Of a DNA stretch of 64,000 bases, positions 12,615 to 45,646 are shown in pieces (position 1 is the first letter of the stretch; each line of letters begins with the position of its first letter). The position numbers and the translations under genes were made by a program. This DNA comes from a virus, in the IMG/VR virus record IMGVR_UViG_3300032163_000003, positions 1-64,000 of that record; one strand, written 5' to 3'. The notes under the pieces are model-generated. The model had not been told where the DNA came from. It ran no database searches and saw only the letters and a list, made by a program, of their open reading frames with translations.

Positions 12615-12654
12615 GAACAAATTAATATACGAGAAAGAATGGAGGTAAAAGGTA

Positions 12655-19582: not shown

Positions 19583-20326
19583 ATGAAATTATGTGAATGT
19601 GGGTGTGGTCAAGAAGTAAAAAAAGAAAAAAATAGATTTATTAGTGGGCATAATCGAAAAGGAACAAAACAATCTAATTTTCAAAAACAAAGAGTTTCAG
19701 AGTCTAACAAAGGAAAGAAAAAAGAAAAGGCAGTCAAAGTCAGTAATAAAAAGTTGCTTTGTAACTATGGGTGTGGACAAGAAGTCAAATTCCAATTTAA
19801 GAATGAAAAATATTGCTGTAATGACAATGTTTCAAAATGTTTGAATATTTCAGAAAGAATTAGAAAAAAAATTAAAGGAAGAAAACAAAGCAAAGAAAGT
19901 ATAGAAAAAAGGTCAAACAAAGGGAAAAAGATTCATAGTAAAAAACATAAAGAAGAATTAAGTCTTTGGATGAAAGAAAATTATAGTTATATACACAAAT
20001 TTATTAAAAAAGTTTCTTCTGGAGAACTCAAACTTAGAGAAATAGTTAAAATTTTATATCCAGCATCAGAACACACACATAGAATTCTTAATTATGATAT
20101 AGATATTACTATTCCTGAATGTAAAATTGCTATCGAATATGATGGGTGGTATCATTTTGATACAGAAGGACATAAAGAATATCATAAGAAGAGACAACAA
20201 GAAATCGAAGAAGAAGAAGGATGGAAGTTCTTAAGATATAATATTTTTCAGAAGTTTCCAACAAAAGAACAAGTTAACGAAGATATTTTAAAATTGCTTG
20301 GAGATAAAAATCATGAAAGCTTTTAG
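19583..20326 (+). CDS. Homing endonuclease, Vsr-like, MKLC family
   Basis: A 247-aa lysine-rich protein. It has two N-terminal zinc modules (MKLCECGCGQEVK and LLCNYGCGQEVKFQ), NUMOD3-like repeats (RKKIKGRKQSKESIEKRSNK) and a C-terminal nuclease domain (CKIAIEYDGWYHFD, then WKFLRYNIF). That pattern resembles EDxHD/Vsr-type homing nucleases such as I-Bth0305I. Its closest relative in the window is the gene at 37820. It lies between the gp6-like gene and a leader-family gene, overlapping the latter by 14 bases, so it was inserted without breaking either. Confidence 0.8.
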   Translation: MKLCECGCGQEVKKEKNRFISGHNRKGTKQSNFQKQRVSESNKGKKKEKAVKVSNKKLLCNYGCGQEVKFQFKNEKYCCNDNVSKCLNISERIRKKIKGRKQSKESIEKRSNKGKKIHSKKHKEELSLWMKENYSYIHKFIKKVSSGELKLREIVKILYPASEHTHRILNYDIDITIPECKIAIEYDGWYHFDTEGHKEYHKKRQQEIEEEEGWKFLRYNIFQKFPTKEQVNEDILKLLGDKNHESF

Positions 20327-20585
20327 TTTCTACCAACTACTAGAAAAACTAGATAAAGAATTAGAACAGATAAACCTCCAACCTTATAAAGCTGGTATGT
20401 TTACACCAGCAGAAGATGAAGAAGATGAAAATATGGAAGAGATGGCTGCTCCAGGTTGGGAAGGTTCAGTTAAGAAAATGAAAAAACACAAAGATATTAC
20501 AAATCCTTGGGCGTTGTCCTGGTTTATGAAGAAACAAGGTGCTCATCCACATTATACAAAAAGTGGCAAAAAGAAAGACGAATAA
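20313..20585 (+). CDS. FSFY-leader protein with GWEGSVKKMKKH domain
   Basis: A 90-aa protein beginning MKAFSFYQLLEKLDKELEQ, the same leader as the cluster at 33.5-37.8 kb, including the L-L-E tripeptide. The acidic middle is followed by PGWEGSVKKMKKHKDITNPW and ALSWFMKKQGAHPHYTKSG. This C-terminal motif is widespread in tailed-phage virion proteins. The start is chosen for the leader, and it lies inside the end of the upstream endonuclease gene. Probably a packaged or scaffold-associated protein (inference). Confidence 0.65.
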   Translation: MKAFSFYQLLEKLDKELEQINLQPYKAGMFTPAEDEEDENMEEMAAPGWEGSVKKMKKHKDITNPWALSWFMKKQGAHPHYTKSGKKKDE

Positions 20586-29842: not shown

Positions 29843-30529
29843 TTACTTCTCTTTCTCGATTTTTGTGAATGTACCAAATCTTTTAACTGTATCAGCGAAT
29901 CCATACTTTACAGCTTCATCTGCATCAAGCCACAATTCTTTCTTTTTAATCTTTTCGTTTAACTCTTGTTTAGTAATTTTACTATGCATTATAATGTAAT
30001 CGTTAACTTTATCTTGGATCTTTCTCATGATCTTAGCTTCTTCTTCCTTATCTGCTGGTGTTTCAATAGCAAAGAACTTAAACTGCCAAAACTCATGAAA
30101 CATGATCATTGACCATTCATCAAGGTATCTATAACCCGGATTCCCTGAAATTAAAATCAATAAACCAGCACTCGCAATTAAACCACGTCCTCGAATTTCT
30201 ATAATCTTACCTGTAGACTGTTGTTCTTTGAAAATAGAGATAATACCCATAGCATCAAATAGACTTCCACCAGAGGTAAGTAAATCTATAACTACAACCT
30301 TATAGCTAATACTCTTTAAAGAAAGAAAAACATCTCTTATATTATTAAAGTCTATGTATCGAATAGACATGTAAATAGTATCTCCATATTTAGATACACC
30401 TTCTGGAAGTATATTATCTGCTGTAAGTTTACCCTTAGCATCTGCACTATATCCTTCTCTTATAGAAAATCCAAAGACAAGGCAACTAATTAAGACTAGT
30501 ATAACTACTATTAAATTTAAACGTTTCAT
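29843..30529 (-). CDS. ClpP-like serine protease with signal peptide
   Basis: A 228-aa protein. Residues 1-30 are a signal peptide or anchor (LNLIVVILVLISCLVFGFS). The ClpP/SppA crotonase-like fold follows: VVVIDLLTSGGSLFDAMGI, then GLIASAGLLILISGN (nucleophile serine in SAG, about residue 119), then MFHEF (histidine about 143). Position and order match ClpP-type proteases. Export would place it in the periplasm or membrane, unusual for a phage ClpP homologue, most of which are cytoplasmic head-maturation proteases. Start chosen at MKRLNL behind AAAAAGGAACAAAC. Confidence 0.8.
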   Translation of the reverse strand: MKRLNLIVVILVLISCLVFGFSIREGYSADAKGKLTADNILPEGVSKYGDTIYMSIRYIDFNNIRDVFLSLKSISYKVVVIDLLTSGGSLFDAMGIISIFKEQQSTGKIIEIRGRGLIASAGLLILISGNPGYRYLDEWSMIMFHEFWQFKFFAIETPADKEEEAKIMRKIQDKVNDYIIMHSKITKQELNEKIKKKELWLDADEAVKYGFADTVKRFGTFTKIEKEK

Positions 30530-30550
30530 TGTTTGTTCCTTTTTCCTCAA

Positions 30551-31024
30551 TTTTTTACTTCCATAATCATCAATTTATCCTATTCTTACATCAGAAGTAT
30601 TTATATTTTGTTCTAAATACTATATGTTTAATGAGTAAATTACAGATAATATCTAATTGTAAGTTAATGGATCGGATCTCATCTATCTATTTAGAGTTAA
30701 GGGTTCAGAGTCCTGGAAAATGTGAGTGTTGTGCGTGAACTTGTAGTGCTCACATAGTGGTACTGAGAATTATTCAGGTTTCTTGGTAGTAACACTGAGC
30801 GGAACTCTGTGAGGAACTGTTCTTAGTACAGGGTAGAAACCAGAATACGATTGTACCAAATTTGTACCTACATTTTATTGCTCACAGTCCAACTAACAGC
30901 GTATCTTACGCACAATTAGCACTTTCCAAACCCACGCACTAGCAGTTCCCCACACAATCCAACTAACATGATTCTTCACTAATTAATTAGATCATGAAAG
31001 CCCCATAGAAAAGACATAGTCTAA
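30551..31024. other. 474-base non-coding region with hairpins
   Basis: No credible gene on either strand. Potential stems are TGTGAG/CTCACA (30721-30726 with 30749-30754), GTACTGAGAA/TTCTTAGTAC (30760-30769 with 30820-30829, one G-U) and GCGTA-AGA-TACGC near 30900. TCCAACTAACA occurs twice (about 30891 and 30958). It lies between the tube-cap-like gene and the ClpP-like gene, so it may be a regulatory RNA or long leader. Confidence 0.45.
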
Positions 31025-33199
31025 TTAAATGTATTTGTTTTCTATAGTGGCTAGACTATTTTCATGAGCAACTTTTATTCCATTTAACCCACGATTATAA
31101 GTATTAATGGTGGCTTCATATTGTTCTTTAGTCATACCACCTGAATTGTATAGATTAGTAGTCTTCTGAATACCAGTATTAAGTACTTGAACACCACTTG
31201 TATATTTTTGATTCTCTCCTGCTATTGCTGAGCTTCTTGCTTGCATTTTTTCTTGACTTGCTGCTACTGTTGGTTCTACTTGTGCTTTCACAGTCTCCTC
31301 TGCTGTAGTTGGGAATGTGTCTGCTTTCTTAACTTCTTCTACTGTTGGTTTGGGTGTTATTGTTGTTTTAATACTTTGTCCTAAATCCTTAACTGTACCA
31401 GTAGCTTTTGTTATACTTTCAGATAATTGTTTAGCTTTAGAACTTGCTCCATCTATTACTGACGTTGCTATCTTAGTTCCTGCTGCATAGACTGCTGTTC
31501 CTGTTGCAGTTAACTTACTTGATACTCCACCCCAGAACGAATCTGATTGTCCAGGAGCTTTACCTCCTTCAGGTAATTCTTTAGGTACATTCTTAGAGTC
31601 TCCTGGTACAGCGCCATATTCATCTTGTATATATGCACTATCTTCTGGGACTGCTGCCATAGCCTCTGCTGCGTCTATCATCTGATCTCTACTTGCTCCT
31701 GGAGTCAGTCCTGCTACTTGAGTTGCTTGTGTTTCTGGTCTCACTCCTTCATAGTACTGTGCTGCTTCTAGTTGATCTTGTAACTTTTTATCTTGTAGAG
31801 CTTTCTGTTCTGCGTTCTGTCCCGCATAGTCTTCCATTTCTTGTGTCTGTTTAGCTTGATCTAACTTAGATGCTTCTAGTTCCTTATCTCTTCCTGCTAC
31901 AATTCTAGCTTCTCTATCTACTTCACCCGGAGCGGTAGCAGCATCTGCTTCTTTCTTTTTAAGATATGCAGCATCTGCTTCATCATCTGACATTACTCTT
32001 GGAGACGGATTCTGGTACGCAGTAGGATCAACAGTACTGGTTGGTGTTCCTGGTGCTGTAACAATATCTTCGTCTGAAGGTATTCCTCTAGATGTTGAAG
32101 TTACATTTGGTGCTCCTGGTTGGGGGCCATACATTTTTGGCGCTACAGTTCTTTCTCCCAACTGGTCTATATAGTCTCCAACTGATGGAACACTGGTAGA
32201 GGTCCTCCGTCCCAACATAACAGAATGCAGCGGTTGGAACTCTAATCTGACATCAATCATGCTAGGTCTATTATTCCATGACATTTGGTTTTCGGGACCA
32301 GGTTGTACTGTGATCCCTATGCATGATGCCATCTTCCACTTAAACAGTCCGGGACTCCAAATTTGATGAATATAAGGCCAACGATATAGATTATCTTGGT
32401 CAGATAGTGGTGCTCCAAGCATTAAAAGTACAGTTAATGGTTCAATGATGTACTTATTGTAACATACATCACTAGCCTGATTTGGGTTATATAACCTTAC
32501 CGGAATTGAGACCGGACCAGAGAATCCACTACCCATCCACACTTTAGGGAAATCAACTCTAGCACCAGTTAACATTTGACCTACTACACTTAACCCAGTA
32601 CTGACCATGTTTCTTACACCTTGTTGTGTATTAGTTGGTAATTTATCTATTGCTTTTTCACCAAGACCTGCTATTCCTTTTATCAAATCGCCAATTTTTC
32701 CGCTTGCCCATTCTCCTGCTCCTTTTCCCCTTTGTCCGGCAACCGCTCCCCCCAACTGTCCTGGGAGTTTTTGTGCTAAGCTTCCAAGACTAGTAGAACC
32801 TGACATTTGGGCTAACTGTCCAAGTAGAGGTCCTCCAACTGATGTAATACTCTCTAAGAAACTAGCACCATAATCATTAGATAACTGAATGCCTGGAATA
32901 GCTTCAGGAAGGAATGCAATAGGAATAGCATTAGAGTCTGTTTTTAACAAAATATCATAATCATTCATTAACATATCTTGAAATTCACCTAGTTTATCAT
33001 CAAAATGAAAAACATCTAAACCAGCAACAAATTGTCCTTGACCAGGTATAAGATACATAAGGGGAATGGATCCCTTTAAAACTTCATTAGAGAAATACAG
33101 TTCAACAGGAGGAAACCCAATTGGTAATCTAGTTGCTGTACTCTCTCCGGAAGATAGTGGATATCCCGGGGTTTTTGCTGCTTTAGCTGGATCTGCCAT
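31025..33199 (-). CDS. Tail-tube cap/initiator-like structural protein with disordered tail
   Basis: A 724-aa protein. Residues about 1-360 contain FPKVWMGSGFSGPVSIPVRL, YNPNQASDVCYNKYIIEPL, TVLLMLGAPL and WPYIHQIWSPGLFKWKMA, the arrangement seen in gp48/gp54-type baseplate proteins that start the tail tube. A Gly-rich segment interrupts it (LAQKLPGQLGGAVAGQRG). The C-terminal half (about 370-724) is Ala/Gln/Glu/Lys-rich, disordered or coiled coil, and far longer than the T4 proteins. Family match is by pattern only. Confidence 0.55.
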   Translation of the reverse strand: MADPAKAAKTPGYPLSSGESTATRLPIGFPPVELYFSNEVLKGSIPLMYLIPGQGQFVAGLDVFHFDDKLGEFQDMLMNDYDILLKTDSNAIPIAFLPEAIPGIQLSNDYGASFLESITSVGGPLLGQLAQMSGSTSLGSLAQKLPGQLGGAVAGQRGKGAGEWASGKIGDLIKGIAGLGEKAIDKLPTNTQQGVRNMVSTGLSVVGQMLTGARVDFPKVWMGSGFSGPVSIPVRLYNPNQASDVCYNKYIIEPLTVLLMLGAPLSDQDNLYRWPYIHQIWSPGLFKWKMASCIGITVQPGPENQMSWNNRPSMIDVRLEFQPLHSVMLGRRTSTSVPSVGDYIDQLGERTVAPKMYGPQPGAPNVTSTSRGIPSDEDIVTAPGTPTSTVDPTAYQNPSPRVMSDDEADAAYLKKKEADAATAPGEVDREARIVAGRDKELEASKLDQAKQTQEMEDYAGQNAEQKALQDKKLQDQLEAAQYYEGVRPETQATQVAGLTPGASRDQMIDAAEAMAAVPEDSAYIQDEYGAVPGDSKNVPKELPEGGKAPGQSDSFWGGVSSKLTATGTAVYAAGTKIATSVIDGASSKAKQLSESITKATGTVKDLGQSIKTTITPKPTVEEVKKADTFPTTAEETVKAQVEPTVAASQEKMQARSSAIAGENQKYTSGVQVLNTGIQKTTNLYNSGGMTKEQYEATINTYNRGLNGIKVAHENSLATIENKYI

Positions 33200-33472: not shown

Positions 33473-33729
33473 TCAGTTTGAAACTGTTTCTTTTAACTTC
33501 GTTATTTCATCTCTAGCAGTAGATATCTCGTCATCCCAATGTCTCCGACAACTTTTTAAATCTGAATACTCATGCCCCCATTCTTTACCTTGTTTTACAA
33601 GTCTTGGACAATTCTTCTTTGCAATCTCACATTTCTTTATAAACCCTGTAAACGCTGAATCCGTTCTTTAGGGTCAGACTTGAAAAAGCCTTCTGTAAGT
33701 CCCTCTACTAGTCTATAAAATGAGAACAT
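33473..33729 (-). CDS. FSFY-leader protein, needs a -1 frameshift
   Basis: From the ATG the frame encodes MFSFYRLVEGLTEGFFKSDP, continues to QRLQGL and stops (TAA at 33637-33639). The codons just before the stop are G GGT TTA, a canonical -1 slippery heptamer. Slipping there joins a 54-codon open frame (IKKCEIAKKNCPRLVKQ ... ETVSN) that has no start of its own. The long product would be about 85 aa with C-x5-C cysteines. Either a programmed frameshift or a recent frameshift mutation. Confidence 0.6.
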
Positions 33730-33732
33730 ATC

Positions 33733-34233
33733 TTATTCCTCTGTCTTAGCTGCTTTCTGGACCTTTTGTCTTTGTAATGCAAGGACTCTAATTGTTCTAA
33801 AAAAATTCTTCTTTGTTACTGGATCTTTAATTTCTGTTCCTGATTTTGCTAATCGTTTTATTGATGGACGTAAACTGGGATCTAGATAAAATTCGTCTAA
33901 TTGATCTGTTCTTTTTAATCCTTCTACTTTAGCTGCTTGCTGCGCAGCTGCTTTATTCTTTTGTGCTACCTCTCTAGAAGCTCTATATACTCCTGATAAA
34001 AAAGACGAAGCTCGTTTGCCACTAAGGGGGGTTGATCCTTTGAATACTTCTTTAACTCTCCCTGGATCTCGCATTCTAGCTCTAGCTTCCCATGACCTCT
34101 TTGTTTCTTTTTTGGCTTTTCTTAATGGAAAAAATACACTGGGTTTAAGTTTAGTCATTGTACTTATACCTTTTTCCCATTTGTATTCATTTAACTGATC
34201 TAACGTTTCTACTAGTCTATAGAATGAAAACAT
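33733..34233 (-). CDS. FSFY-leader basic protein
   Basis: A 166-aa protein with leader MFSFYRLVETLDQLNE. The rest is very basic and helical (KKETKRSWEARARMRDPGRV), suiting DNA binding or packaging in the head. A second leader-like site KRTDQLDEFYLD lies near residue 113. The L-V-E and L-D-E tripeptides fit the T4 prohead-protease pattern. Probably an internal head protein, by inference. Confidence 0.6.
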   Translation of the reverse strand: MFSFYRLVETLDQLNEYKWEKGISTMTKLKPSVFFPLRKAKKETKRSWEARARMRDPGRVKEVFKGSTPLSGKRASSFLSGVYRASREVAQKNKAAAQQAAKVEGLKRTDQLDEFYLDPSLRPSIKRLAKSGTEIKDPVTKKNFFRTIRVLALQRQKVQKAAKTEE

Positions 34234-34235
34234 GA

Positions 34236-34451
34236 TTATGTCTCCTTACTTGATTTCATATGTGAATAATCTTTTAAGTATCTTGGATCTTTCCACATGC
34301 AAGTATCACAAACTATTATCTCACCAGAATTTGCATAGTTACCCCAGGGTTCACCAGTTGGCCCAACTGCATAAAATCCGGCCGTGGCTGTTTCGGTTCT
34401 AATTCCATCTATCATTTTTCCACATCGGTCGCACTTGACGGTTACTTTCAT
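34236..34451 (-). CDS. Zinc-ribbon small protein (71 aa)
   Basis: VKCDRCGKMIDGI at the N-terminus and VCDTCMWKD near residue 50 form a two-knuckle zinc ribbon around a glycine-rich strand region. Not recognised. Its start overlaps the previous stop by one base. Confidence 0.6.
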   Translation of the reverse strand: MKVTVKCDRCGKMIDGIRTETATAGFYAVGPTGEPWGNYANSGEIIVCDTCMWKDPRYLKDYSHMKSSKET

Positions 34452-34693
34452 TAGAGTCTATTCCTTCTTCTATCATTACATATTATACCAGTTGAACTAA
34501 CATTAATATCTATATTAATAACTTTACCAAATAATCTTTCTAACCAGTCTAACTTTCCGTTTCCACCACATACATGACATAAATAGGGAATTTTTAATTC
34601 CCCGGTAAATTCGGTTCCTATCCCTTCACACTTTGGACATATGATGTCGGTCTTTTGGAGGTCTTCTTTTTGAACTCCAAGTTTACCGTTCAT
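34451..34693 (-). CDS. DnaJ-type zinc-finger protein with LDWLE motif
   Basis: An 80-aa protein with CPKCEGIG and CHVCGGNGKLDWLERLFGK, the paired CxxCxGxG knuckles of the DnaJ zinc finger, followed by the DW motif common to the family here. It lacks J or substrate domains. It sits among leader proteins, far from most paralogues at 51.6-63.9 kb. Confidence 0.65.
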   Translation of the reverse strand: MNGKLGVQKEDLQKTDIICPKCEGIGTEFTGELKIPYLCHVCGGNGKLDWLERLFGKVINIDINVSSTGIICNDRRRNRL

Positions 34694-34914
34694 TCTTCTA
34701 CTGGTCCTGCTAAATTCTTTTCTGCAGGTTCAGGTTCTGGCTCTTTAGTCTTTACTAGAGATAGTATTTTCTTCTTCCCTGGATTTTCTGGAGGATTGAT
34801 AGCTCCCGCTGCTGAAACTCCACTACTTGTTGGAAGTCCAGCAACTCCTGCGTCCCCTCCTGCGTCTTCATATAGTTTACCTAACGCTTCTACTAGTCTA
34901 TAAAATGAAAACAT
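34690..34914 (-). CDS. FSFY-leader acidic protein
   Basis: A 74-aa protein: leader MFSFYRLVEALGKLYEDAGG, then a low-complexity Gly/Ala/Pro region and a KTKEPEPEPAEKN segment. Presumably flexible after leader removal. Its stop overlaps the next start (4 bases). Confidence 0.6.
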   Translation of the reverse strand: MFSFYRLVEALGKLYEDAGGDAGVAGLPTSSGVSAAGAINPPENPGKKKILSLVKTKEPEPEPAEKNLAGPVEE

Positions 34915-34942
34915 ATCTTAATCTCCAATTGTTTTGTCTATG

Positions 34943-35335
34943 TTAAAATTTTAGAAGTGGGCCAGTCTTTATCTGTATGTCTGGTACTATGTTAACTAAA
35001 GTAGCAACTAAATATCTTGTGCTCTTGGTTCGTTCAGAGTTTTCCATCAGAATGGTACCTTCTAGTATTTTAAATTCGGATCCTTTGAAACTAAGAAGTC
35101 CCATGCTAAAACTTGTAACGTCATTTTTGTTTTCGTCTGTTAGCGTTACGACAAGATTTCCCTTTATGGGAATGTCAGTTTCATTCTGTATAGTTACTTT
35201 CCATTCTAATATACATCCGTCAGAACTACATGCAGCAGATAGTACTGCTGGAGTTATACTTACTTGACCATGTACTGCTGGAGCTATGAGTAATAGACTT
35301 AAGACTATTAACAATACTGCTAAGAATTTTTTCAT
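34943..35335 (-). CDS. Secreted protein with cleavable signal peptide
   Basis: A 130-aa protein with signal peptide (KFLAVLLIVLSLLLIAPAVHG, cut around residue 23) followed by a beta-sandwich-like domain (ILEWKVTIQNETDIPIKGNL) with a cysteine pair (AACSSDGCILEW). It looks like an exported Ig-like domain. Its target is unknown; within a virion-protein cluster this is unusual. Confidence 0.65.
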   Translation of the reverse strand: MKKFLAVLLIVLSLLLIAPAVHGQVSITPAVLSAACSSDGCILEWKVTIQNETDIPIKGNLVVTLTDENKNDVTSFSMGLLSFKGSEFKILEGTILMENSERTKSTRYLVATLVNIVPDIQIKTGPLLKF

Positions 35336-35346
35336 TTATATCTCCT

Positions 35347-35568
35347 CTATACTTCTGCTTCGTCTTTCTTCTCTACATAGCAAGGACAATTATGTTGCCT
35401 ATTTTTCTCGTTATTAAAATAGACACATCTACCAGCTTCTGAGACTCCTGCTTGTTTACACCCCGGAATACATAAGTTATCTTTCTTTTTCCATTTGGAA
35501 CAGACCTTACCATTTCCACAATAATCTTCTTGTTCTAATACTTCAAGTAATTTATAGAATGAAAACAT
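35347..35568 (-). CDS. FSFY-leader cysteine-rich protein
   Basis: A 73-aa protein: leader MFSFYKLLEVLEQED, then a compact domain with seven cysteines (YCGNGKVCSKWKKKDNLC, IPGC, GRCVYF, NCPC). The spacing suggests a disulphide-rich or zinc-bound mini-domain, which could be active after ejection into the cell envelope. Confidence 0.6.
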   Translation of the reverse strand: MFSFYKLLEVLEQEDYCGNGKVCSKWKKKDNLCIPGCKQAGVSEAGRCVYFNNEKNRQHNCPCYVEKKDEAEV

Positions 35569-35583
35569 GAGATTTAATCTCCT

Positions 35584-35784
35584 TTATTTATCACACTCTT
35601 TGCAATCTAACTCACTAGCGCCGATACCTGTAGTTCTGAATTCTTCTATGTGTCCACACTCAAGAGTTGTTTCTACTATGTGATATATTGTATGATGAAC
35701 TTCATTGCTTAGATAACCCGAACATCCCTGTGGGTCTGTCCATGTTCTATCTGTATGTTTATAAGATATAACTTTTCTAATCAT
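35584..35784 (-). CDS. Small Cys/His protein (66 aa)
   Basis: Starts MIRKVISYKHTDRTW; an earlier start would run into the upstream leader gene. It has TLECGHIEEFR and LDCKECDK, which can form one zinc site. Not recognised. Confidence 0.55.
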   Translation of the reverse strand: MIRKVISYKHTDRTWTDPQGCSGYLSNEVHHTIYHIVETTLECGHIEEFRTTGIGASELDCKECDK

Positions 35785-35794
35785 TATTTTATTT

Positions 35795-36064
35795 CTATTC
35801 CTCTTCTGCTGGTTCCGCTTGCATTTTAAATCTTGACATTGCGGAAGATACTTTTTGTTTAGCATGTTGCGCTGCTTTGAAAGCGTTTACATATAATTGT
35901 TTATCTAGAGGAACTTTTGATTTCATATATGCTTTTCTACGTACTATCGCTGTTGCTATCTTATCTTTCCATGAAGAAAGAGATGGATTGTTTGAGCTTA
36001 AATTTCGATTCCATACCGCTTCTAGTAATTCTAGTTCTTCTATTAATTGGTAGAAACTAAACAT
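35795..36064 (-). CDS. FSFY-leader protein (89 aa)
   Basis: Leader MFSFYQLIEELELLEAVW with I-E and L-E sites, then a basic helical body (KDKIATAIVRRKAYMKSK, FKAAQHAKQKVSSAMSRF). The end is acidic (AEPAEEE). It resembles a DNA-associated internal protein. The start overlaps the small ORF upstream by 8 bases. Confidence 0.6.
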   Translation of the reverse strand: MFSFYQLIEELELLEAVWNRNLSSNNPSLSSWKDKIATAIVRRKAYMKSKVPLDKQLYVNAFKAAQHAKQKVSSAMSRFKMQAEPAEEE

Positions 36065-36185
36065 TACTTTCTATCTCCTTACATGCCCTACATTTAAGTC
36101 CTGGAATTACGCACCTTTTGAAAGTAATTCCTAAAATGAAGTCTAGTAAACAATATGTTATACCTAGATAGATTAGAATTTCCAT
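36057..36185 (-). CDS. 42-aa hydrophobic Cys peptide
   Basis: MEILIYLGITYCLLDFILG... then KRCVIPGLKCRACKEIE. The ribosome binding site is AGGAGATCTAAGAAA. One membrane-like stretch followed by a CxxxxxxCxxC segment. It is too short for usual gene finders, but start, spacing and overlap with the next leader gene support it. Confidence 0.5.
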   Translation of the reverse strand: MEILIYLGITYCLLDFILGITFKRCVIPGLKCRACKEIESNV

Positions 36186-36357
36186 TTTCTTAGATCTCCT
36201 ATGTGAACGTGAACCTACGGTGCTTGCGATCCTGCTTTAAAGATAATACACTTACCTACAATCTAGTCCACACCCACATGAACCAGCCCGAGTGAAAATC
36301 CTTAAAAGGATTTTCTTTATCCACACTTTTAGTTTAACAAAAAATACTTTCATATTT
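36186..36357. other. Intergenic region with hairpin and shared RNA motif
   Basis: No gene. AAAATCCTT-aa-AAGGATTTT (36295-36314) is a strong hairpin with a T-rich plus-strand flank. On the minus strand AGCACCGTAGGTTCACG (about 36204-36220) matches AGCACTACAAGTTCACG (about 30734-30750) at 13 of 17 bases, linking it to the non-coding region at 30.6-31.0 kb. Confidence 0.4.
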
Positions 36358-36897
36358 TTATTTCCGTATCTTTGAACCTTTATATTTTTCCGACGTTAAC
36401 TCTCTATATCTTTCTCTTAGTTCTAGAATTTTTTCCTCTGATGTGTCTACACAGTTCTGTCTGAGGAAAGCGCGTTCTTTACTAATTTTTGTATAACAAT
36501 TCTGAATTCGTTTTCTTAGAAGTCCTATTTGTACTTCTATTGCTTGCAACTTTAGTTTCTTTCTACATTCAAATCCTTCTACTCCTGTTTTAGAAAAACA
36601 TGTTTCTTTTTCTTTAGCTTCGAAATGAGCAGCTACCGCTCCTATAATAGCAGCAATTGTTATAATTCCTAACACTCCTAATGTACTTACTTTTTGTTTT
36701 TTCTTTCCTTCTAAAACATATGGAATAAAAGTTTCTTCAACTTCTTCGGGGTTTTCCGATTGTAGAATCATAGGTTCCTTATCTTTAGACTGTAGTATCG
36801 GTGCATTCGGAGCTATCTTAACTATTTTTGGATCTCTAACTTGTGGAGCTTCAGTTCTATCTAACTCAATAAGTTTTATAATTCTACTTATTCTCAT
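36358..36897 (-). CDS. Single-span protein with cysteine-paired helices
   Basis: A 179-aa protein. Basic N-terminal helix (MRISRIIKLIELD), disordered Pro/Glu linker, a hydrophobic segment (VLGIITIAAIIGAVAAHF, about residues 83-100), then helices carrying CFSKTGVEGFEC, NCYTKISKE and RQNC. The plan matches the proteins at 15889 and 36899. Could insert in a membrane after ejection. Confidence 0.55.
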   Translation of the reverse strand: MRISRIIKLIELDRTEAPQVRDPKIVKIAPNAPILQSKDKEPMILQSENPEEVEETFIPYVLEGKKKQKVSTLGVLGIITIAAIIGAVAAHFEAKEKETCFSKTGVEGFECRKKLKLQAIEVQIGLLRKRIQNCYTKISKERAFLRQNCVDTSEEKILELRERYRELTSEKYKGSKIRK

Positions 36898-36898
36898 T

Positions 36899-37336
36899 CT
36901 ACTGTCCTCCGACAACACTTACTTGTGACTTTTCTTTAACTTTTCTTGGGCTGCTCCACGGGGAAGTATTGATTATACCTTTTAGCTTATCTGACGCTAA
37001 AGTCTTTCCCGAGGAGTTTGGGGTTTTATCTCCCATATTGAATGAGTTTACGTTCTGAACTTCAGACACCTTCTTTTTCTTTGTTGCTTTATACGAATGC
37101 TGCATTATTGTAGCTTTTCGATTAAAACAATCGACCACGCATTTTTCCCACTCTTTTCTATCCAAGATACGAGAACACTCTGATTTACAAAACATCATCG
37201 CGTCACGTTCTTTCCCTTTTTTTATGAGATGACGTAATCCTAAAACACCAGCGATAGCTGCAATAGTTGGAGTAGCAAATAGTTCCTGCAGTTCTTGTTC
37301 TTCCAAATATTCTATTAATTGATAGAATGAAAACAT
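36899..37336 (-). CDS. FSFY-leader membrane protein with twin CX3C
   Basis: A 145-aa protein: leader MFSFYQLIEYLEEQELQE, a hydrophobic stretch (PTIAAIAGVLGLRHLIKKG), then CKSEC-x11-CVVDC, a twin CX3C helical hairpin like those that form two disulphides. The C-terminal third is low-complexity and basic. Start chosen at the leader; an upstream start would overlap the preceding gene widely. Confidence 0.6.
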   Translation of the reverse strand: MFSFYQLIEYLEEQELQELFATPTIAAIAGVLGLRHLIKKGKERDAMMFCKSECSRILDRKEWEKCVVDCFNRKATIMQHSYKATKKKKVSEVQNVNSFNMGDKTPNSSGKTLASDKLKGIINTSPWSSPRKVKEKSQVSVVGGQ

Positions 37337-37340
37337 GAAG

Positions 37341-37823
37341 TTATTCCTTATGTTGTTTCCAGGATTTAATTCCTGGTCCACCCAAGTTCTTAGTTGGTGC
37401 TCTGAATTTACCAGACCATTTATTCTTAATCCAATTATAACCTCTTGCTGCAATATTCGCGGCGTTTAACTTTTCATCCAACGACTGGAGATATTCGTCT
37501 AGTTGTGTAGTTTTTAGGAATTCTTGTTTATTTGTTTTTGAACTTTCTTCTACATTTTCTTCGTCTTTATCTTCTCTCTCGTAAGGCCTGAATGGATATC
37601 TTACCGCATTAACTGCGCCTTTTGCCACACCCTTAACTGCTCTGTATGCTCCGTATAATCCACCCGCTGCTAAGCCAGCAGTTCCTAAAGCACCAAGTCC
37701 TGCCACTTTTGCAGTTTTTTTAGCCGCGCTTTTTATTGCGGGAGCTGGTGGAACATATATTCCTTCCTCTTTCAGTAATAAGTCAAGGTCTCCTAAGAAC
37801 TGATAAAAGCTAAATCGTTTCAT
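37341..37823 (-). CDS. FSFY-leader protein with Gly/Ala hydrophobic segment
   Basis: A 160-aa protein: variant leader MKRFSFYQFLGDLDLLLKEE, then a Gly/Ala-rich span (AGLGALGTAGLAAGGLYGAY, about residues 42-61), and a second leader-like site (EFLKTTQLDEYLQSLDEKLN). The basic C-terminal tail (WIKNKWSGKFRAPTKNLGG) could bind DNA. It lies downstream of the inserted endonuclease gene at 37820. Confidence 0.6.
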   Translation of the reverse strand: MKRFSFYQFLGDLDLLLKEEGIYVPPAPAIKSAAKKTAKVAGLGALGTAGLAAGGLYGAYRAVKGVAKGAVNAVRYPFRPYEREDKDEENVEESSKTNKQEFLKTTQLDEYLQSLDEKLNAANIAARGYNWIKNKWSGKFRAPTKNLGGPGIKSWKQHKE

Positions 37824-38458
37824 ATATTTCCTCCTAGAATAACTTTTTGAATATCTCTTTTTACTTGATCTTTAGTTGGAAACTTATCGAACATTGTATA
37901 TCTTATAAATTTCCACCCATCTTCTTCAATTTCTTTTTGTCTTTTCTTGTGGTGTTCTTTGTGTTTCTCTGTATCAAAATGATACCAACCGTCAAATTCT
38001 ATAACTATTTTATGTTTAGACAAAGCGTTGTCAACTTCATAATCTTTATTTTCTAAAACTTTGTATGTATGTTCTGAAATTGGAAATAATTCTTTTACAA
38101 TTCCTCTAAGTTTAAGTTCTTGTTTTGATGGATTTTTGATTTGTTTTCTAGCTTTTCTAAGATTTTCTTTAACTTTCTCATTTCCTTTCATTTTTACTGA
38201 AACTTTTTCTGCTGCTCTTCTTCGCCCTTCATCATTCTCTTTAGTTCTACCGGTTATTTTTTCCGCTGCTCTTTCTCGAACCTTTTCAGTTTGAAAACTA
38301 AGAGCGTGAACTGCTCCTCCGTTTCTCATGTATTCTGCTTGTCTTTTAACGCTTTCATCATTCTCTTTTGTTTTTCCTCTTCTATTATGTCCAAGTATAA
38401 ATTTATTTCCTTCTTTAGTCACTTCTAATTCACATACTCCACAAGCACATAATTTCAT
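37820..38458 (-). CDS. Homing endonuclease, Vsr-like, MKLC family
   Basis: A 212-aa protein beginning MKLCACGVCELEVTKEG, with a basic repeat region (RAAEKITGRTKENDEGRRRA) and the same nuclease end as the gene at 19583: HKIVIEFDGWYHFDTE, then WKFIRYTMFDKFPTKDQV. The two are clear paralogues. It lies flush between two leader-region genes, overlapping the next start by 4 bases. Confidence 0.8.
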   Translation of the reverse strand: MKLCACGVCELEVTKEGNKFILGHNRRGKTKENDESVKRQAEYMRNGGAVHALSFQTEKVRERAAEKITGRTKENDEGRRRAAEKVSVKMKGNEKVKENLRKARKQIKNPSKQELKLRGIVKELFPISEHTYKVLENKDYEVDNALSKHKIVIEFDGWYHFDTEKHKEHHKKRQKEIEEDGWKFIRYTMFDKFPTKDQVKRDIQKVILGGNI

Positions 38459-38474
38459 TGATAATCTTCCTTCT

Positions 38475-38837
38475 TCATTCATAATTTGATTTAACCCTCC
38501 CAGTTCCTGAAACTGATTTAGACTGGTTCTCCCAGTTAGATCTGTTCATTCTAAATGTTTTAAAGTCACCAAACTTTTTATTTAACTTAACTATTTCTTT
38601 AGTCTTTCCTGAAAATCTTGGAGATTGTTCTTTACCTATTGTCGAAGGAAGTGGACGAATAGGACTTGCAGATTCACTTTCAACTGCGTCTCCAGTTTGT
38701 AATCTATTTGATCTTTCTGAATCAACATTTGACATAAACTTATTTAGTTTTAATTGCGCGCCAACTTTCTTCTTTCCGCTTAGATAGACCTCGTATTCAT
38801 CAAGTCTAGTAATTCTTAAGAACTGTTCCTTTGTCAT
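38475..38837 (-). CDS. Protein with LDEY leader-like start
   Basis: A 120-aa polar protein starting MTKEQFLRITRLDEYEVYL, which resembles the internal 'FLKTTQLDEYLQSL' site of the 37341 protein. The rest is Ser/Lys-rich and disordered (SESASPIRPLPSTIGKEQ). Possibly another packaged protein with a divergent targeting sequence. Confidence 0.5.
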   Translation of the reverse strand: MTKEQFLRITRLDEYEVYLSGKKKVGAQLKLNKFMSNVDSERSNRLQTGDAVESESASPIRPLPSTIGKEQSPRFSGKTKEIVKLNKKFGDFKTFRMNRSNWENQSKSVSGTGRVKSNYE

Positions 38838-38871: not shown

Positions 38872-41800
38872 TTAAATATTACCACTTAAAATTGCAGCGA
38901 TTTCAGGATCAAAAGATCCTTGTCCGCTTTGTCTTCCACCCCCACCGCCCTGTTGATTGCTTTGCATATTTGTGATTACGTTAGAGTTAGAAATTATCGC
39001 TGCGTTTACTCCTTTGAGACCTTTATCTATAGCTCCAACCATTGGGTTCATTGCTTTACTCATTCCATTGATTCCCATCATAGCATTTTCTACTTCTCCA
39101 TCAATCAAGTCTTTTCTTTTGTAAGGAACATTGAATTGTTTAGGATCTCCAACTTGTGGTTTCATTTGCAAATGCCATGGCTCATTTCCCATTGGCTGAT
39201 AAAATCCATACTTCTCCATCAGACCTTCTTTTTTCAAACCATAAGCATCTCCACTATTAATGTCTAACGCCAATCCTTTTCCGTGAGGAGATTTTCCTGG
39301 AGGAGCAGCGTATGGGTTAGTTTTGTACAACTCAGCTTGTTTTGCTGGAGACCTGTAGGCGGAGTTTAATTGAATCTCTTTTCCTGTTCCTTTCTTATAT
39401 TCTTCTGCCATCAAAGAGAAGTTTTTCCAAATTGGTTCTTGAACTCCACTTATATCAACATCAGGCATTTTCTTGATTCCAACTAAAGATCCAAGTCGTT
39501 CCCCAATCGTAGTAGCTCCAGAAACTATAGATTTTCCTATATCTGTTATTCCTACTTTTTCAGCTACTCTTTGAGCAAATCCAGTAGCTCCAGTTGCTGC
39601 TTGACCAATAGCCCCAGCGGCTTTTCCTAGTAAACTTTCTTTTTGATATTCTAGTTGGATTATTTTTCCTACGTCTGCGAAACCCTCTTTAATCGCTTCT
39701 CGAATAGTAATAGCTAAGTGAGATTCACTGCTTGCTGATTTACCAACACCATCCCCTACTTCTTTTATTTGACCATACTTTCTTGGTCCATATCCCGGAT
39801 CTCCAACTCCTCCCATTTGCATATATTTTTCATATTCCGCTTGCCCAGCACCAGGAGTAGTTTCTGGAGCTTTTTCCGGTCCACCTGTAACTTTCTCAAC
39901 AGCCCATCCAATCGCTTTTACAAGAGGATTCTTTTTAACTAAATCAACTATCCAATCTTTTGCTTTAACTGCTAAGTCCCACATAAAGTCAACTGGATAT
40001 AGAACCAAATCTTTTATCGCTATAGCCTTTTCTTTAACATAACCAACTACAGAATCTATAGATTTCGAAATTGTTTTACTAGCAGATTCAACTATATCAA
40101 AAACTAAGTCTCCGAGCCATCCAGGTCCTTTATATTTTCCTCCTGAAATCCACTCACCAAACATTCCAAATAATTCACCAACAAGAGTTTTTTCCCCTCG
40201 AAAAGCTTGTATCATTTCATAAACACCAAACGCAGCTGCTCCTACTGCAGCTCCCATTGGTAACATTCTTAATAAAGCACCACCCGCTTTACCCAGTCCT
40301 TTTAGCCCCAACCCACCAAGGGCTTTTAAGTATCTTAGAGGATTTAACTTTGTCATAAGACTCTTTACCCAACCACCGATTGCTCCAACAGTCATCAGCA
40401 AGTAGTCAGATATACTTTTAGTTCCTTTTTTAAGTATGTCTATAATTTTAGCTGTATCCTCTTTAATTGTTGCTACTATCTTTGAGGTAGGTTTTGCGAT
40501 ACCTATTATTTGTTTAGTTTGGTCTTTTGAAAGCTTTCCAAAATATCTTGAAATAAATCTAGCTGCTTTTCCTGATATTTCGGAAATAATTATCTTAGTT
40601 TCTAACTCCTTTTTTTCTCCTTCTTTGACTCCCATTCCAGCTTTTGCTGCTGCAAAAGGAATCTTGTAGTCTTTATAAGTCTTATCTTCTTTTACTTTAC
40701 CATGTTTTCCACCAAACAAAATTCTTTTTATGTTTTTTGGTCTTAAAGCTCCTAATCCTCCAACACCTCCAGCTTCCACTTCTCCAGCTCCAACCCCAGC
40801 GAAACCTAACATTGTTTCCCACGCTTTTTGAACTATGTCAGAAAAGAATCCACCACCCATTCCACCAACGGTAACTTTCTCTCTCTTCTTTTTAGCAGCT
40901 TTTTGACTAGGCGATTCCCAACCACCTTCTTCTGGAGCACCACCAAAACCAAGCATTCTTTTTATCTTATCAAACATTCCTTCTTCTTTTTTACCTGCCG
41001 GTTTCCACCAACGCTTGACTCCTCTAGCTCCAAGTCTTATTTTTTGAATTCCGGTTGCTTCCATCTTTTCTCTTGGTTCTCTAAATCGTTCCTGTTTTAT
41101 ATCAAGACCCATTCCAATAGCTTTTAGAGAAGAAAGTATGTGATCATATTTATGCATGAAGTCAGCATAAATCATTCCCAATGTAGTAGCAATATTTCCT
41201 AGAACGTTTGGACCTTTTGGAACTTTAGCTTTGTATTTGCTTTGAGTAGAGAATAACCACTTTAAAGGTTTAGCCATCCAATCGCTAATTTTTATAAATG
41301 TTTTGAACATAGGGATTTCTTTAAACATATCCCGTATCATGCCATATATTCCCCCCGGTTCTCCTTCCACATTCGGTTCAGAAATCGTTGTTAATTGTTC
41401 TCGAATTGCTCCTAACTCAGTCGTTACTGGTTTAATTGACCGTTTAAACATTAGGTTAAATTCTCTAAACAATTTTTGAGAAGGAACTACAACTTCTGCT
41501 GCATGCACTTGAGCTAGTCCTGTCTTTGCTACATATCCGCCTTTCTGTAGTTTTGGAATTCTTGTGTTTTCTCTAGCAGATTGACCAGCTCTAAACATTG
41601 ACTTAAACTTAGATCCAACCACACTAGCGGCGTCACTAAGTTTATTTTTAATTGCGTCACTAAATTTTCTGAAAACACCAGTTTCCATGAATTTAGCGGC
41701 GAAGTATCCAAATATAGGAGTAGCTCGACTCAGCGCCATTGCGACGGTATTTGGCGCGCTGATATTTAATTCTCTTTGTAAAATGTTTTTATAATTTTGG

Positions 41801-42132
41801 AGTGTTTCTTTTGTGATGGAAGATATCTTGACAACGCCTCTTCCCATTATGTCAAACACGTATCCAACTCTATTTAAGATACCAGAAACCGACTTTTCTA
41901 TTTCTCTAATTCCTTCAGTTCCAGCCATTCTTTCTACTTTAAGTCTTCTAGCTTTTTCTGTAATTCTTCTAATATCATTTCTAGCTCCGCCAAGTTCTTT
42001 TTGAAAGTCATCGTTATTTCTTTCTATAAAATTCGAAACAGCATTGATCCCTTTAGCTCGTTGGTTTCCTTCTGCCGTTGCTTCTCTTTCATTCTGACTC
42101 ATCATTCGTCTAATGTCTCGGTCATTAGCCAT
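38872..42132 (-). CDS. Tape measure-type protein with C-terminal M15 peptidase
   Basis: A 1086-aa protein. A long helical, Ala/Gly/Lys-rich body with hydrophobic spans (AVGAAAFGVYEMIQAF about residue 627) precedes a peptidase domain. SAYRSPAKQAELY (about 924), HGKGLALDI (about 949) and WHLQMKP (about 986) give the H-x6-D...H ligands of the M15/VanY family. M15 enzymes cut peptide links in peptidoglycan, so the tape measure would open the wall on injection. The N-terminus is highly charged coiled coil. Confidence 0.8.
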   Translation of the reverse strand: MANDRDIRRMMSQNEREATAEGNQRAKGINAVSNFIERNNDDFQKELGGARNDIRRITEKARRLKVERMAGTEGIREIEKSVSGILNRVGYVFDIMGRGVVKISSITKETLQNYKNILQRELNISAPNTVAMALSRATPIFGYFAAKFMETGVFRKFSDAIKNKLSDAASVVGSKFKSMFRAGQSARENTRIPKLQKGGYVAKTGLAQVHAAEVVVPSQKLFREFNLMFKRSIKPVTTELGAIREQLTTISEPNVEGEPGGIYGMIRDMFKEIPMFKTFIKISDWMAKPLKWLFSTQSKYKAKVPKGPNVLGNIATTLGMIYADFMHKYDHILSSLKAIGMGLDIKQERFREPREKMEATGIQKIRLGARGVKRWWKPAGKKEEGMFDKIKRMLGFGGAPEEGGWESPSQKAAKKKREKVTVGGMGGGFFSDIVQKAWETMLGFAGVGAGEVEAGGVGGLGALRPKNIKRILFGGKHGKVKEDKTYKDYKIPFAAAKAGMGVKEGEKKELETKIIISEISGKAARFISRYFGKLSKDQTKQIIGIAKPTSKIVATIKEDTAKIIDILKKGTKSISDYLLMTVGAIGGWVKSLMTKLNPLRYLKALGGLGLKGLGKAGGALLRMLPMGAAVGAAAFGVYEMIQAFRGEKTLVGELFGMFGEWISGGKYKGPGWLGDLVFDIVESASKTISKSIDSVVGYVKEKAIAIKDLVLYPVDFMWDLAVKAKDWIVDLVKKNPLVKAIGWAVEKVTGGPEKAPETTPGAGQAEYEKYMQMGGVGDPGYGPRKYGQIKEVGDGVGKSASSESHLAITIREAIKEGFADVGKIIQLEYQKESLLGKAAGAIGQAATGATGFAQRVAEKVGITDIGKSIVSGATTIGERLGSLVGIKKMPDVDISGVQEPIWKNFSLMAEEYKKGTGKEIQLNSAYRSPAKQAELYKTNPYAAPPGKSPHGKGLALDINSGDAYGLKKEGLMEKYGFYQPMGNEPWHLQMKPQVGDPKQFNVPYKRKDLIDGEVENAMMGINGMSKAMNPMVGAIDKGLKGVNAAIISNSNVITNMQSNQQGGGGGRQSGQGSFDPEIAAILSGNI

Positions 42133-43021: not shown

Positions 43022-43909
43022 TTACGTTAAACTTTTCATCATCGTTATAAACTTATCTTTTAGAATCTTTTTTTCCACATGTAAAGCTATAACTTCCTCT
43101 GGTCTCCATAACTCTTGAAAACATACATTCCCATACGTCGGCACGTCCAAAGCGTCATACGTTCGGTACATCGGAGATAAAATATGCATGTACCCGTTAT
43201 ATAAAATGTCTTGCGCTTTTCCGCCATACACAGTTACAAGTTTAATGCATTGTTTCATATCTTCTACATTCTTGTCAAACTTATCCGGATCTTTTGAATA
43301 CTTCTTTAGCGGTAACATAACTTTTGAATACTTGCTTATAACAGCTGCGATTGAAACCTCGGCCCCAAATTCGGTATGCATCTGAACAACTATCTTCCAA
43401 ACCTCATCGTCAATTTTTTGTCCTTTCAGAATCTTAAAAATATCTTTGAAAAATAGAATGTAGTAGTCTTTGATATAGTCTTTGAAAATTGTTAAGAACT
43501 TATTTGGTTCTCTATCAGTACAGTAATGGACTAGTTCATGACTAGTAACTCTAGCAAGAACTTTATTTGGATATGATAAGAACCAGTTGATGTAGTTATC
43601 AAGAACTATAAAGATCTTTCTTTGATTTGGTTCGTAAAAAGCTGCAAATCCCGGTCCTTCTATTGACTGTAGTATTTTCTTTGTGATAAACTTTATTGCA
43701 CTGCTTTCTTGCCAACATGGAACTATTGCTTGCTTTTTTCTAACAAGATTATCTATCTCTCGGATCACATCTGAAAAATAATCCGACTTCGCCAAAGCTT
43801 TTACAAATCTTTCTTGAATTCTTTCCGAAGTATAAAAAGGCACACCTTCAAGTTTCACAGCGATCCTTCCATTTTCCGGTAGTGCGAACAGTTCTTGAAC
43901 TTGTTCCAT
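43022..43909 (-). CDS. HExxH metalloprotease-like protein
   Basis: A 295-aa protein. VTSHELVHYCTDREP (about residue 124) is the zincin HExxH motif. IVLDNYINWFLSYPNKVLAR precedes it, and MHTEFGAEVSIAAV may supply the third ligand (E). Placed directly after the terminase gene, so it may act in virion maturation or be carried in the particle. No family beyond the motif is recognised. Confidence 0.65.
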   Translation of the reverse strand: MEQVQELFALPENGRIAVKLEGVPFYTSERIQERFVKALAKSDYFSDVIREIDNLVRKKQAIVPCWQESSAIKFITKKILQSIEGPGFAAFYEPNQRKIFIVLDNYINWFLSYPNKVLARVTSHELVHYCTDREPNKFLTIFKDYIKDYYILFFKDIFKILKGQKIDDEVWKIVVQMHTEFGAEVSIAAVISKYSKVMLPLKKYSKDPDKFDKNVEDMKQCIKLVTVYGGKAQDILYNGYMHILSPMYRTYDALDVPTYGNVCFQELWRPEEVIALHVEKKILKDKFITMMKSLT

Positions 43910-43915
43910 GTATCG

Positions 43916-45646
43916 TTATCCTTTTTCTATTCCGATAAACTTTCCTAGTTCTTCCTCTTCCTCTTCGTCCTTTGGGAGCAGATCTATGGCTTTTCTAGAT
44001 TCGATCTTGTATCCAGGAGCTGCTCTGCTTAGTTGAGTTGTGCCATCATAGAAAGAAAGAGTATTTAAAAACCCTTGGTTTGCAGATATGTTATCTTTTA
44101 CGAACTGCATAATGTCTTCATTAGTTAGATTAGATCTTTGGTTGTCGTTCATTTTCATTACATCATTAAACATTGTGTCAGATAAGAACTTACTAGATTC
44201 TACCCCCATTGGTGGGTCATACTTGCGGACGTAAAATGCGCAAGCAGTTGCGAGAGACAAGTCATCTCTACAACCTACATCTCCTTCAACTTTTCCAGCT
44301 TTAGTAATTAATCCAATTAGTTCTAATGAAAGTCTTTTTGATTTAACTAATTCTGGGAATTCAGTAATATAGGAATATAACGAATCTATAATTAAAGGTC
44401 TAGTTTTAGAGTTATTCGATAGTCCGGCAACTACTTTATTATCACCTTTTTTCTCTTTGTACAGCATGTTTGATAAATCGGATCTATCAATCTCTTCACA
44501 TACTTGGTTTCCATATCCTCCAGTATTTTCAACAACTAGAAGACCAGGATATTTAGTACAAGCTAACCTAACTACTTTACTAAACTCGGTAACAGCAAGT
44601 TTTCCTTCGTACTCCCAAACTTGTTCTAAAGTTACATAGTCCCAAACTGTAATTGCAGAATTGTCTACGCCGTGTTCTGCAGCGGTATCCACTCCAATCA
44701 AATAGTATCTTCCCTTCTCGGGCTTCTTAAACATCCACGATTCCCCACCAAATATCCTTACAATTTCTATTGGTTCAGATTTATCTCTTTGTAACTTCTC
44801 GCAAGTAATTTCATCAAAGAACGATCCTTTTGTAGGTAAAAAGATTAAATCTAGTTCTTGCTTGATCGACCTTTGGTCATTTGCAAACATTTCACATTGT
44901 GTTTTATACCAAGTAGGATCTCCCGCAAGTTCTGGAATTTGTTTCCAGTGAATTTCCATATATTTAAAAATATCATCACCGCTCATTGATCGTTGATATC
45001 TTTTATAAAACCACGCACCTAAACCAGTAGTTTTATTAGGAGTTGATAATATTAAAGTTCCATATGGAACATTTGCTTCTCTTGCGTGCTTTTGATTAGT
45101 TGATAAAGCTGGAACCATTCCAACCCATGCATCTTCAATGTGTGGAATGAACGCTGCTTCGTCAATTACTAAGAATGTTATTGCTTTACCACGGAGAGTT
45201 CTTTCTGGGTGGTTTGGGTTTACTGGAGTAGCATAACATTTGCACCCGTTGTCAAGAATAAATTGTTGTTCTGTTCTTTTCTTGAACTTTGGAGACAACC
45301 AAATAGGAAGTTTATCTATCATTGACATTATCGCTCTAGCAAAGTCAGTAGCTTCTTTTCCATCTTTGGAGATAATTCCGATAACTGCGTTCTTAAAGAA
45401 ACAAACCAACCATCCAATATATGCTTGAACTACTGTAGAAATTCCAATTTGTCTAGATTTTAGAACTAACATGTTATGAATGGTGTGAATTAAGTTAATT
45501 AATTCAGCCTGTTTCTGATAAGGTTTTATCAGACGATCTCCCCCAACTAGTTCAAGTTTGATATACTTTCTGCAAAAATACTCGAATGAACTCTTACACT
45601 TAAAGTATTCTTGGAGCCTATACTGCCTTTCTTTTTCGTCAGTCAT
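43916..45646 (-). CDS. Terminase large subunit, gp17-like
   Basis: A 576-aa DNA-packaging motor. ATPase part: LVLKSRQIGISTVVQAY (Walker A-like, about residues 60-76), FLVIDEAAFIPH (Walker B with catalytic Glu), ILSTPNKTTG (coupling motif). Nuclease part: YLIGVDTAAEHGVDNSA (first Asp, about 317), LVVENTGGYGN, and RDDLSLATACAF (last Asp pair). Length is typical of T4-type terminases. No small subunit lies adjacent in this window. Confidence 0.93.
   Translation of the reverse strand: MTDEKERQYRLQEYFKCKSSFEYFCRKYIKLELVGGDRLIKPYQKQAELINLIHTIHNMLVLKSRQIGISTVVQAYIGWLVCFFKNAVIGIISKDGKEATDFARAIMSMIDKLPIWLSPKFKKRTEQQFILDNGCKCYATPVNPNHPERTLRGKAITFLVIDEAAFIPHIEDAWVGMVPALSTNQKHAREANVPYGTLILSTPNKTTGLGAWFYKRYQRSMSGDDIFKYMEIHWKQIPELAGDPTWYKTQCEMFANDQRSIKQELDLIFLPTKGSFFDEITCEKLQRDKSEPIEIVRIFGGESWMFKKPEKGRYYLIGVDTAAEHGVDNSAITVWDYVTLEQVWEYEGKLAVTEFSKVVRLACTKYPGLLVVENTGGYGNQVCEEIDRSDLSNMLYKEKKGDNKVVAGLSNNSKTRPLIIDSLYSYITEFPELVKSKRLSLELIGLITKAGKVEGDVGCRDDLSLATACAFYVRKYDPPMGVESSKFLSDTMFNDVMKMNDNQRSNLTNEDIMQFVKDNISANQGFLNTLSFYDGTTQLSRAAPGYKIESRKAIDLLPKDEEEEEELGKFIGIEKG

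Follow-up and report, generated by a model that had tools for sequence, protein, structure and literature searches.

What leads a run of otherwise unrelated small viral proteins to begin with one and the same short peptide? This question is raised by a 64,000-base stretch of viral DNA (the window), which comprises bases 1–64,000 of the 110,069-base IMG/VR virus record IMGVR_UViG_3300032163_000003, and in which a series of genes encodes the N-terminal leader FSFYxLxE. An earlier note on the window had described seven such proteins in one cluster and an eighth at 20313, with wholly different bodies and an L-x-E tripeptide in nearly every leader, and had taken the leader for a capsid-targeting sequence. 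We searched the whole 110-kb record in six frames for leader open reading frames (ORFs) and recovered the same set: eight genes whose products start with FSFY, seven at 33637–37823 on the minus strand and the eighth, at 20313–20585, on the plus strand. No further FSFY leader on a real ORF was found in the record. Based on the leader itself, the selection that acts on it as a peptide, its LxE tripeptide, the insertion of its genes into structural operons, and the protease and capsid genes of the lineage, all of which can be read directly, we favor with moderate confidence the reading that FSFYxLxE is a leader of the capsid-targeting type, carried by accessory virion proteins of a large myovirus, that it is probably cut by a gp21-type protease, and that the proteins are probably delivered to the host. 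The leader genes are as follows, with a slash after the (L/I)xE tripeptide:

Leader gene 1: 33474–33729, minus strand; MFSFYRLVE/GLTE...; a 30-residue ORF (33637–33729), then a GGGTTTA heptamer and TAA, and the -1 frame to 33474
Leader gene 2: 33733–34233, minus strand; MFSFYRLVE/TLDQLNE...; 166 residues, very basic; internal TDQLDEF motif
Leader gene 3: 34690–34914, minus strand; MFSFYRLVE/ALGKLYE...; 74 residues, acidic
Leader gene 4: 35347–35568, minus strand; MFSFYKLLE/VLEQED...; 73 residues, seven Cys
Leader gene 5: 35795–36064, minus strand; MFSFYQLIE/ELELLE...; 89 residues
Leader gene 6: 36899–37336, minus strand; MFSFYQLIE/YLEEQELQE...; 145 residues; hydrophobic segment and twin Cx3C
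Leader gene 7: 37341–37823, minus strand; MKRFSFYQFLGDLDLLLKEE...; 160 residues; internal KTTQLDEYLQSLDE motif
Leader gene 8: 20313–20585, plus strand; MKAFSFYQLLE/KLDKE...; 90 residues; body AAPGWEGSVKKMKKHK...
Putative divergent ninth leader gene: 36358–36897, minus strand; MRISRIIKLIE/LDRT..., with LIE at residue 11, then a hydrophobic segment and a Cys hairpin

The leader is 9–11 residues long with the consensus FSFY[RQK][LF][VIL][E/G]; six genes start with MFSFY and the other two with MKRFSFY or MKAFSFY. An AGGA/GGAG-type ribosome-binding site lies upstream of each of the eight ORFs (starts at 33729, 34233, 34914, 35568, 36064, 37336 and 37823 on the minus strand and at 20313 on the plus strand), and small leader-less genes are interspersed among the leader genes of the cluster. 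The bodies behind the leader have no evident common feature, ranging from the basic 166-residue and acidic 74-residue proteins to those with seven Cys or with a hydrophobic segment and twin Cx3C; none matches a Pfam or PHROG family above cut-off, and the proteins encoded at 20313, 37341 and 33733 have no relatives by tblastn among 50,697 phage records. The (L/I)xE tripeptide occupies the aligned leader position in seven of the eight genes. The common leader, the unlike bodies and the near-constant tripeptide of the earlier note all hold. Within residues 10–20 a second (L/I)xE occurs in six of the eight leaders, against a mean of 3.3 in shuffles (P about 0.03). In the two K-x-FSFY genes Phe and Tyr occupy positions 4 and 7; the six MFSFY genes have them at 2 and 5, again three apart. 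Residues 3–20 of leader gene 5 are predicted to form a helix (AlphaFold2, single sequence, mean predicted local distance difference test (pLDDT) score 71). The MRISRIIKLIE start of 36358–36897 looks like a diverged form of the FSFY leader, as judged from its sequence.

Two ORF boundaries were corrected: ORF 36899–37453 truly begins at ATG 37336 and not at TTG 37453, and ORF 33637–33729 encodes 30 residues only, its continuation to about 33474 being in the -1 frame. The latter ORF ends CAG GGT TTA TAA, with the in-frame slippery heptamer GGGTTTA immediately before the stop, after which the -1 frame is open for about 57 more codons (FIKKCEIAKKNCP...TVSN); this end reflects programmed -1 frameshifting or, alternatively, a single-base error in the assembly.

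The codons of the leader show what has been conserved. When the four FSFY codons are compared between genes, synonymous differences are seen in 51 of 112 codon pairs and residue changes in none, and the Ser is spelled TCA in some genes and AGT or AGC in others, spellings that no single synonymous step joins. Since the codons diverge while the residues do not, selection acts on the leader as a peptide; a recent copy at the DNA level alone would look different. We then scanned IMG/VR and 257 Gb of prokaryote genomes (GTDB, about 85,000 genomes) for the exact spelling ATG-TTY-TCN-TTY-TAY-NNN-YTN-NTN-GAR, i.e. MFSFYx(L/F)xE with a TCN Ser. There were 8 matches in all IMG/VR and 52 in the 257 Gb, each of which was inspected, and none of them is a plausible leader gene; of the other spellings scanned, AGY gave 2 stretches and KxFSFY gave 0. 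The chance expectation is about 2e-5 TCN-spelling matches per 110 kb, compared with 5 seen. As judged by these exact-spelling scans the FSFY tag is private to this virus, and the support that the earlier note had looked for in the leaders of related phages came to chance matches only.

The virus carries a T4-type terminase and baseplate proteins, and the leader set is confined to its structural operons. Searches with two baseplate proteins gave about 85 contigs of the virus's own lineage, which has no close relative among the 50,697 phage records searched; in the unannotated records genes were called with a simple script, and start sites there are approximate. The features that place the leader genes are:

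Conserved virion structural gene g42: 31025–33199, minus strand; flanks the cluster and is directly beside g55 in relatives
Tape-measure-like gene g55, with a VanY peptidase domain: 38872–42132, minus strand; the other flank of the cluster
T4-type terminase large subunit: 43916–45646, minus strand; marker for placing the virus
DUF559/Vsr-like endonuclease gene: 37820–38482, minus strand; overlaps the start of leader gene 7
DUF559/Vsr-like endonuclease gene: 19583–20326, plus strand; overlaps the start of leader gene 8
Neighbor gene with a T-x-LDE-Y/F motif: 38475–38837, minus strand; starts MTKEQFLRITRLDEY...
Member of a lineage-wide 4-Cys family in the baseplate operon: 15889–16425, plus strand; N-terminus ...CRLFLKE/AAIVS

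The eighth leader gene sits between the baseplate wedge gene g29 and g32. In most lineage contigs that span the region (more than 50), g29–g32, g32–g42 and g42–g55 are directly adjacent; the junctions are thus empty in relatives, and the leader genes are insertions in this virus. Both K-x-FSFY genes come directly after DUF559/Vsr-like endonuclease genes with their ends overlapping, which suggests a route by which these two may have arrived. About a dozen genes with a common YGCGQEAK zinc-finger-like N-terminus are spread over the genome (19583–20326, 37820–38482 and 42136–43008 in the window, and several in L009 and L010), two of them with a Pfam-confirmed DUF559/Vsr-like C-terminus; by their sequences they constitute an expanded mobile endonuclease family. 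Translating the 110 kb in all six frames yields the T-x-LDE-Y/F motif just three times, once each within leader genes 2 and 7 and once at the beginning of 38475–38837.

One relative shows that a body can be retained under another leader. L170 is among the closest relatives, and a gene at the corresponding junction there encodes a protein with 62% identity over 52 residues to the body of the 20313 product (AAPGWEGSVKKMKKHKDITNPWALSWFMKKQGAHPHYT). This ortholog starts MKNKLLNTYLEFLQE and not MKAFSFYQLLE, a leader of different sequence that still ends in LxE. We tentatively suggest, as a possibility that falls short of an even chance, that the leader is a standardized, swappable virion-delivery tag: genes landing in the hot spot between tail genes would receive the leader of the lineage, which would load unrelated and possibly anti-host proteins, and an orthologous body could exchange its leader for another and still retain the protease site.

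A protease of the required type is encoded in the lineage. The relative G014 (248 kb; 58% identity in the terminase large subunit, 54% in RNA polymerase beta' and 61% in a baseplate protein) encodes a gp23-type capsid protein at 30013–31179 (2e-34) and a portal, and in the same head operon the gene h38, whose product is a head maturation protease of the S77/gp21 type (phrog_207, 3e-23; PF03420, 2.7e-6, below the Pfam cut-off). Its H69 in ELDHP and S133 in GxSxRG are invariant in a comparison with T4 gp21, immuto and Mel-JY01. By sequence, then, the lineage encodes a gp21-type protease in the same head operon as a gp23-type capsid protein. S77 is found in 14 of 16 records of the wider terminase group, those without it (G001 and G002) being short, head-less fragments of the virus's own lineage. 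Of the 19 pairs of proteins in gp21-bearing relatives that have a leader in common and unrelated bodies, 15 show (L/I)xE on both sides, as compared with 33% of single proteins, where the pairs are not independent and as families amount to about seven with LxE and two signal-peptide-like ones without. In the 4-Cys family of the lineage (about 188 hits), (L/I)xE occurs in residues 5–22 in 54% of members versus 22% of other proteins, a comparison whose P value is inflated by relatedness; the commonest residues after the tripeptide are S, A, V and I, and in the head operon of G014 the prohead protease has a 4-Cys protein on either side. The protein encoded at 36358–36897 is a weak, distant member of this family (E 2e-6). 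Family members have a hydrophobic segment followed by A-K-x-C...C...C...NPxKC and occur in head and baseplate operons and at many lineage loci (e.g. 12294–12704 and 13370–13912 in L260, and 15889–16425 in the window); those tested have no PHROG match. Two further protease observations stand apart. ORF 29843–30529 (minus strand), near the cluster, encodes a ClpP-like protease (Pfam CLP_protease, 2e-16; PHROG head maturation protease, 6e-17), which we did not adopt as the leader protease, since its N-terminus carries a signal sequence and sites of this type are known to be cut by S77 enzymes. The 595-kb uncultured phage LR756511.1 has two S77-type protease matches far apart, at 242621–242989 and 526118–526534.

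Packaging, cleavage and delivery would, we infer, proceed as follows: (i) the leader is translated in front of unrelated accessory proteins; (ii) FSFY and the following Leu may bring the proteins into the virion by binding to the prohead core or to some other intermediate of assembly; (iii) a gp21-type (S77) prohead protease would cut after the Glu of (L/I)-x-E and remove the leader; and (iv) once mature, the proteins would travel in the particle, probably for delivery to the host.

Several observations weigh against this proposal. Leader gene 7 (37823) reads FSFYQFLGD, with no LxE at the aligned position and just LLKE further on. The mature bodies are no more basic than the other small proteins of the genome, 46% of this background having an isoelectric point above 8.5, and we dropped the basic isoelectric point as an argument; an amphipathic leader helix was dropped likewise, as amphipathicity does not single the leader out. 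The leader genes are in tail and baseplate operons, away from head genes, and the support is therefore better for a virion role in general than for one in the capsid in particular. Apart from the pattern, the leader shows no homology to the T4 capsid targeting sequence (CTS) that could be aligned. Finally, neither gp21 (Pfam S77) nor gp23 was found in the 110-kb record, and the virus's own protease is unseen. The missing gp21 says little, because the record is without any head gene found; portal and sheath were likewise not found in it, and it is most likely a fragment that lacks the head genes. Such fragments are accounted for by the distance between the head and tail operons, about 170 kb in G014, and among 20 large lineage records gp23 or gp21 is found in G014 alone. 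The capsid-targeting role inferred in the earlier note is supported in part: in its favor stand the real leader, its conserved peptide, the LxE, the protease of the lineage, the comparable sets of relatives and the LxE leader of the L170 ortholog; a gp21-like protease, which the earlier note would have sought in the genome, is absent from the record itself and present beside the major capsid protein in G014.

The neighborhood of the genes makes a tail location the strongest rival. Here the leader would be a tail or baseplate docking peptide, acting in tape-measure or hub assembly to place accessory proteins in the tail and not necessarily cut, which we regard as unlikely. It would agree with the insertion between tail genes (g42/g55 and g29/g32), with the presence of lineage-wide 4-Cys proteins in the baseplate operon, and with the common N-terminal region on tail spikes of RaK2 and viunalikeviruses that has been interpreted as baseplate-binding (PMC3622015). 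However, docking leaves the recurring (L/I)xE unexplained, as well as its recurrence in gp21-bearing relatives; the two 4-Cys proteins beside the G014 protease are in a head module, and the internal protein genes of T4 are likewise away from the T4 head genes.

The common start could instead be a by-product of recombination: a cassette of ribosome-binding site and leader that does no targeting and was spread by duplication or homing endonucleases. In favor of this, the cluster is inserted, both K-x-FSFY genes come straight after endonuclease genes, and three leaders have ATG-TTY-TCA-TTY-TAT-AGA-CTA-GTA in common; yet the sequences upstream of the leaders differ, the L170 ortholog retains an LxE leader of other sequence, and the synonymous divergence, which reaches even the Ser codon (TCA versus AGY) and leaves every residue unchanged, implies peptide selection. 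Because of this codon evidence a mobile start cassette is disfavored, and we consider it a shade less credible than docking. Least probable, in our judgment, is an intracellular address, to a membrane or phage nucleus, that acts during infection and not in assembly: the virus encodes multi-subunit RNA polymerase subunits like some jumbo phages, and the leader is hydrophobic and predicted to be helical in one protein, but the set is limited to structural operons, the hydrophobic moment is not consistently high and the LxE is again unexplained.

Other features of the genome and lineage were noted. A second common N-terminus, M[KR]xKxDFVTNSSSxS, occurs on unrelated small proteins and is widespread in the lineage (window 2771–3010; L009 729–1088 and 1085–1471; G014 from 180062; also L174, L176, L177, L192, L202, L203, L211 and L252); it is without LxE, and no description of it came up in a literature phrase search. 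A conserved gene at 43022–43909 (minus strand), located between terminase and tape measure, keeps the HExxH motif throughout the three lineage members compared (HELVH, HECMH and HELQH), making its product a possible metallopeptidase by sequence; it has no relative in phage records, and its AlphaFold2 model (mean pLDDT 38) is unusable. The virus encodes multi-subunit RNA polymerase beta/beta'-like proteins (L010, 3768–6842 and 7977–10697) alongside a T4-type terminase; in phage records these come closest, at about 28% identity, to those of an Acinetobacter phage and of Rhizobium jumbo phages.

Proteins injected with phage DNA are the first to act against host defenses, and are often small, fast-evolving and without homologues, which makes them hard to find by similarity. 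A common leader with a prohead-protease site makes candidates for injected proteins recognizable in uncultured phages and yields a concrete test list. If the more tentative reading of a swappable tag is true, such leaders would be a general predictor of injected proteins in uncultured T4-type phages. The capsid-targeting proposal would extend the T4 targeting principle to a large RNA-polymerase-encoding phage lineage. Two T4 examples of injected proteins are IPI, which blocks a type IV restriction enzyme, and IPIII, which is required on some E. coli hosts (PMC9026906, PMC9391042).

Sets of unrelated proteins with a common (L/I)xE leader in one genome are also seen in Flavobacterium phage immuto, whose genome has an S77 protease: our N-terminal scan gave two leader families there with (L/I)xE, MENFDLKKFLVENKLT (four proteins) and MKKSxLxxIIKE (four proteins), neither of which has sequence homology to FSFY. 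The ejection (inner-body) proteins of phiKZ and SPN3US, cut by the gp175/gp245 protease (PMC5694885, PMC10052503, PMC9026906), resemble the present case in that a gp21-related protease of a large phage cuts N-terminal propeptides after Glu, often at several sites each, and these redundant sites recall the second (L/I)xE in most leaders here. In contrast, their motif is S/A-x-E and most SPN3US propeptides exceed 100 residues, whereas the FSFY leaders have (L/I)-x-E and 9–11 residues, and neither S/A-x-E sites nor long propeptides are found in them.

The closest likeness is to T4, on which the same scan, as a positive control, recovers the IPII/IPIII leader MKTYQEFIAE, a known CTS. The CTS of IPI, IPII, IPIII and Alt is likewise a short N-terminal leader (10–19 residues) common to unrelated small bodies (PMC9026906), with aromatics three apart and then (I/L)xE, and the T4 internal protein genes are variable accessory genes located away from head genes. 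Mutational work on the IPIII leader assigned incorporation to residues 4 and 7 and cutting to residues 8 and 10 (PMC9026906); in MKAFSFYQLLE, as in MKTYQEFIAE, aromatics are at 4 and 7. Unlike in T4, the leader is FSFYxLxE, its users number eight or nine rather than two or three, seven of them are clustered as one tail-operon insertion, and packaging and cleavage are predictions. Membership in the T4 CTS class is not established, because the leader lacks homology to it and the virus's own protease is unseen; by analogy, the FSFY leader most likely works like a T4 CTS. The underlying targeting principle is already known from T4, and what is new here is a leader sequence of its own and an expanded set of users.

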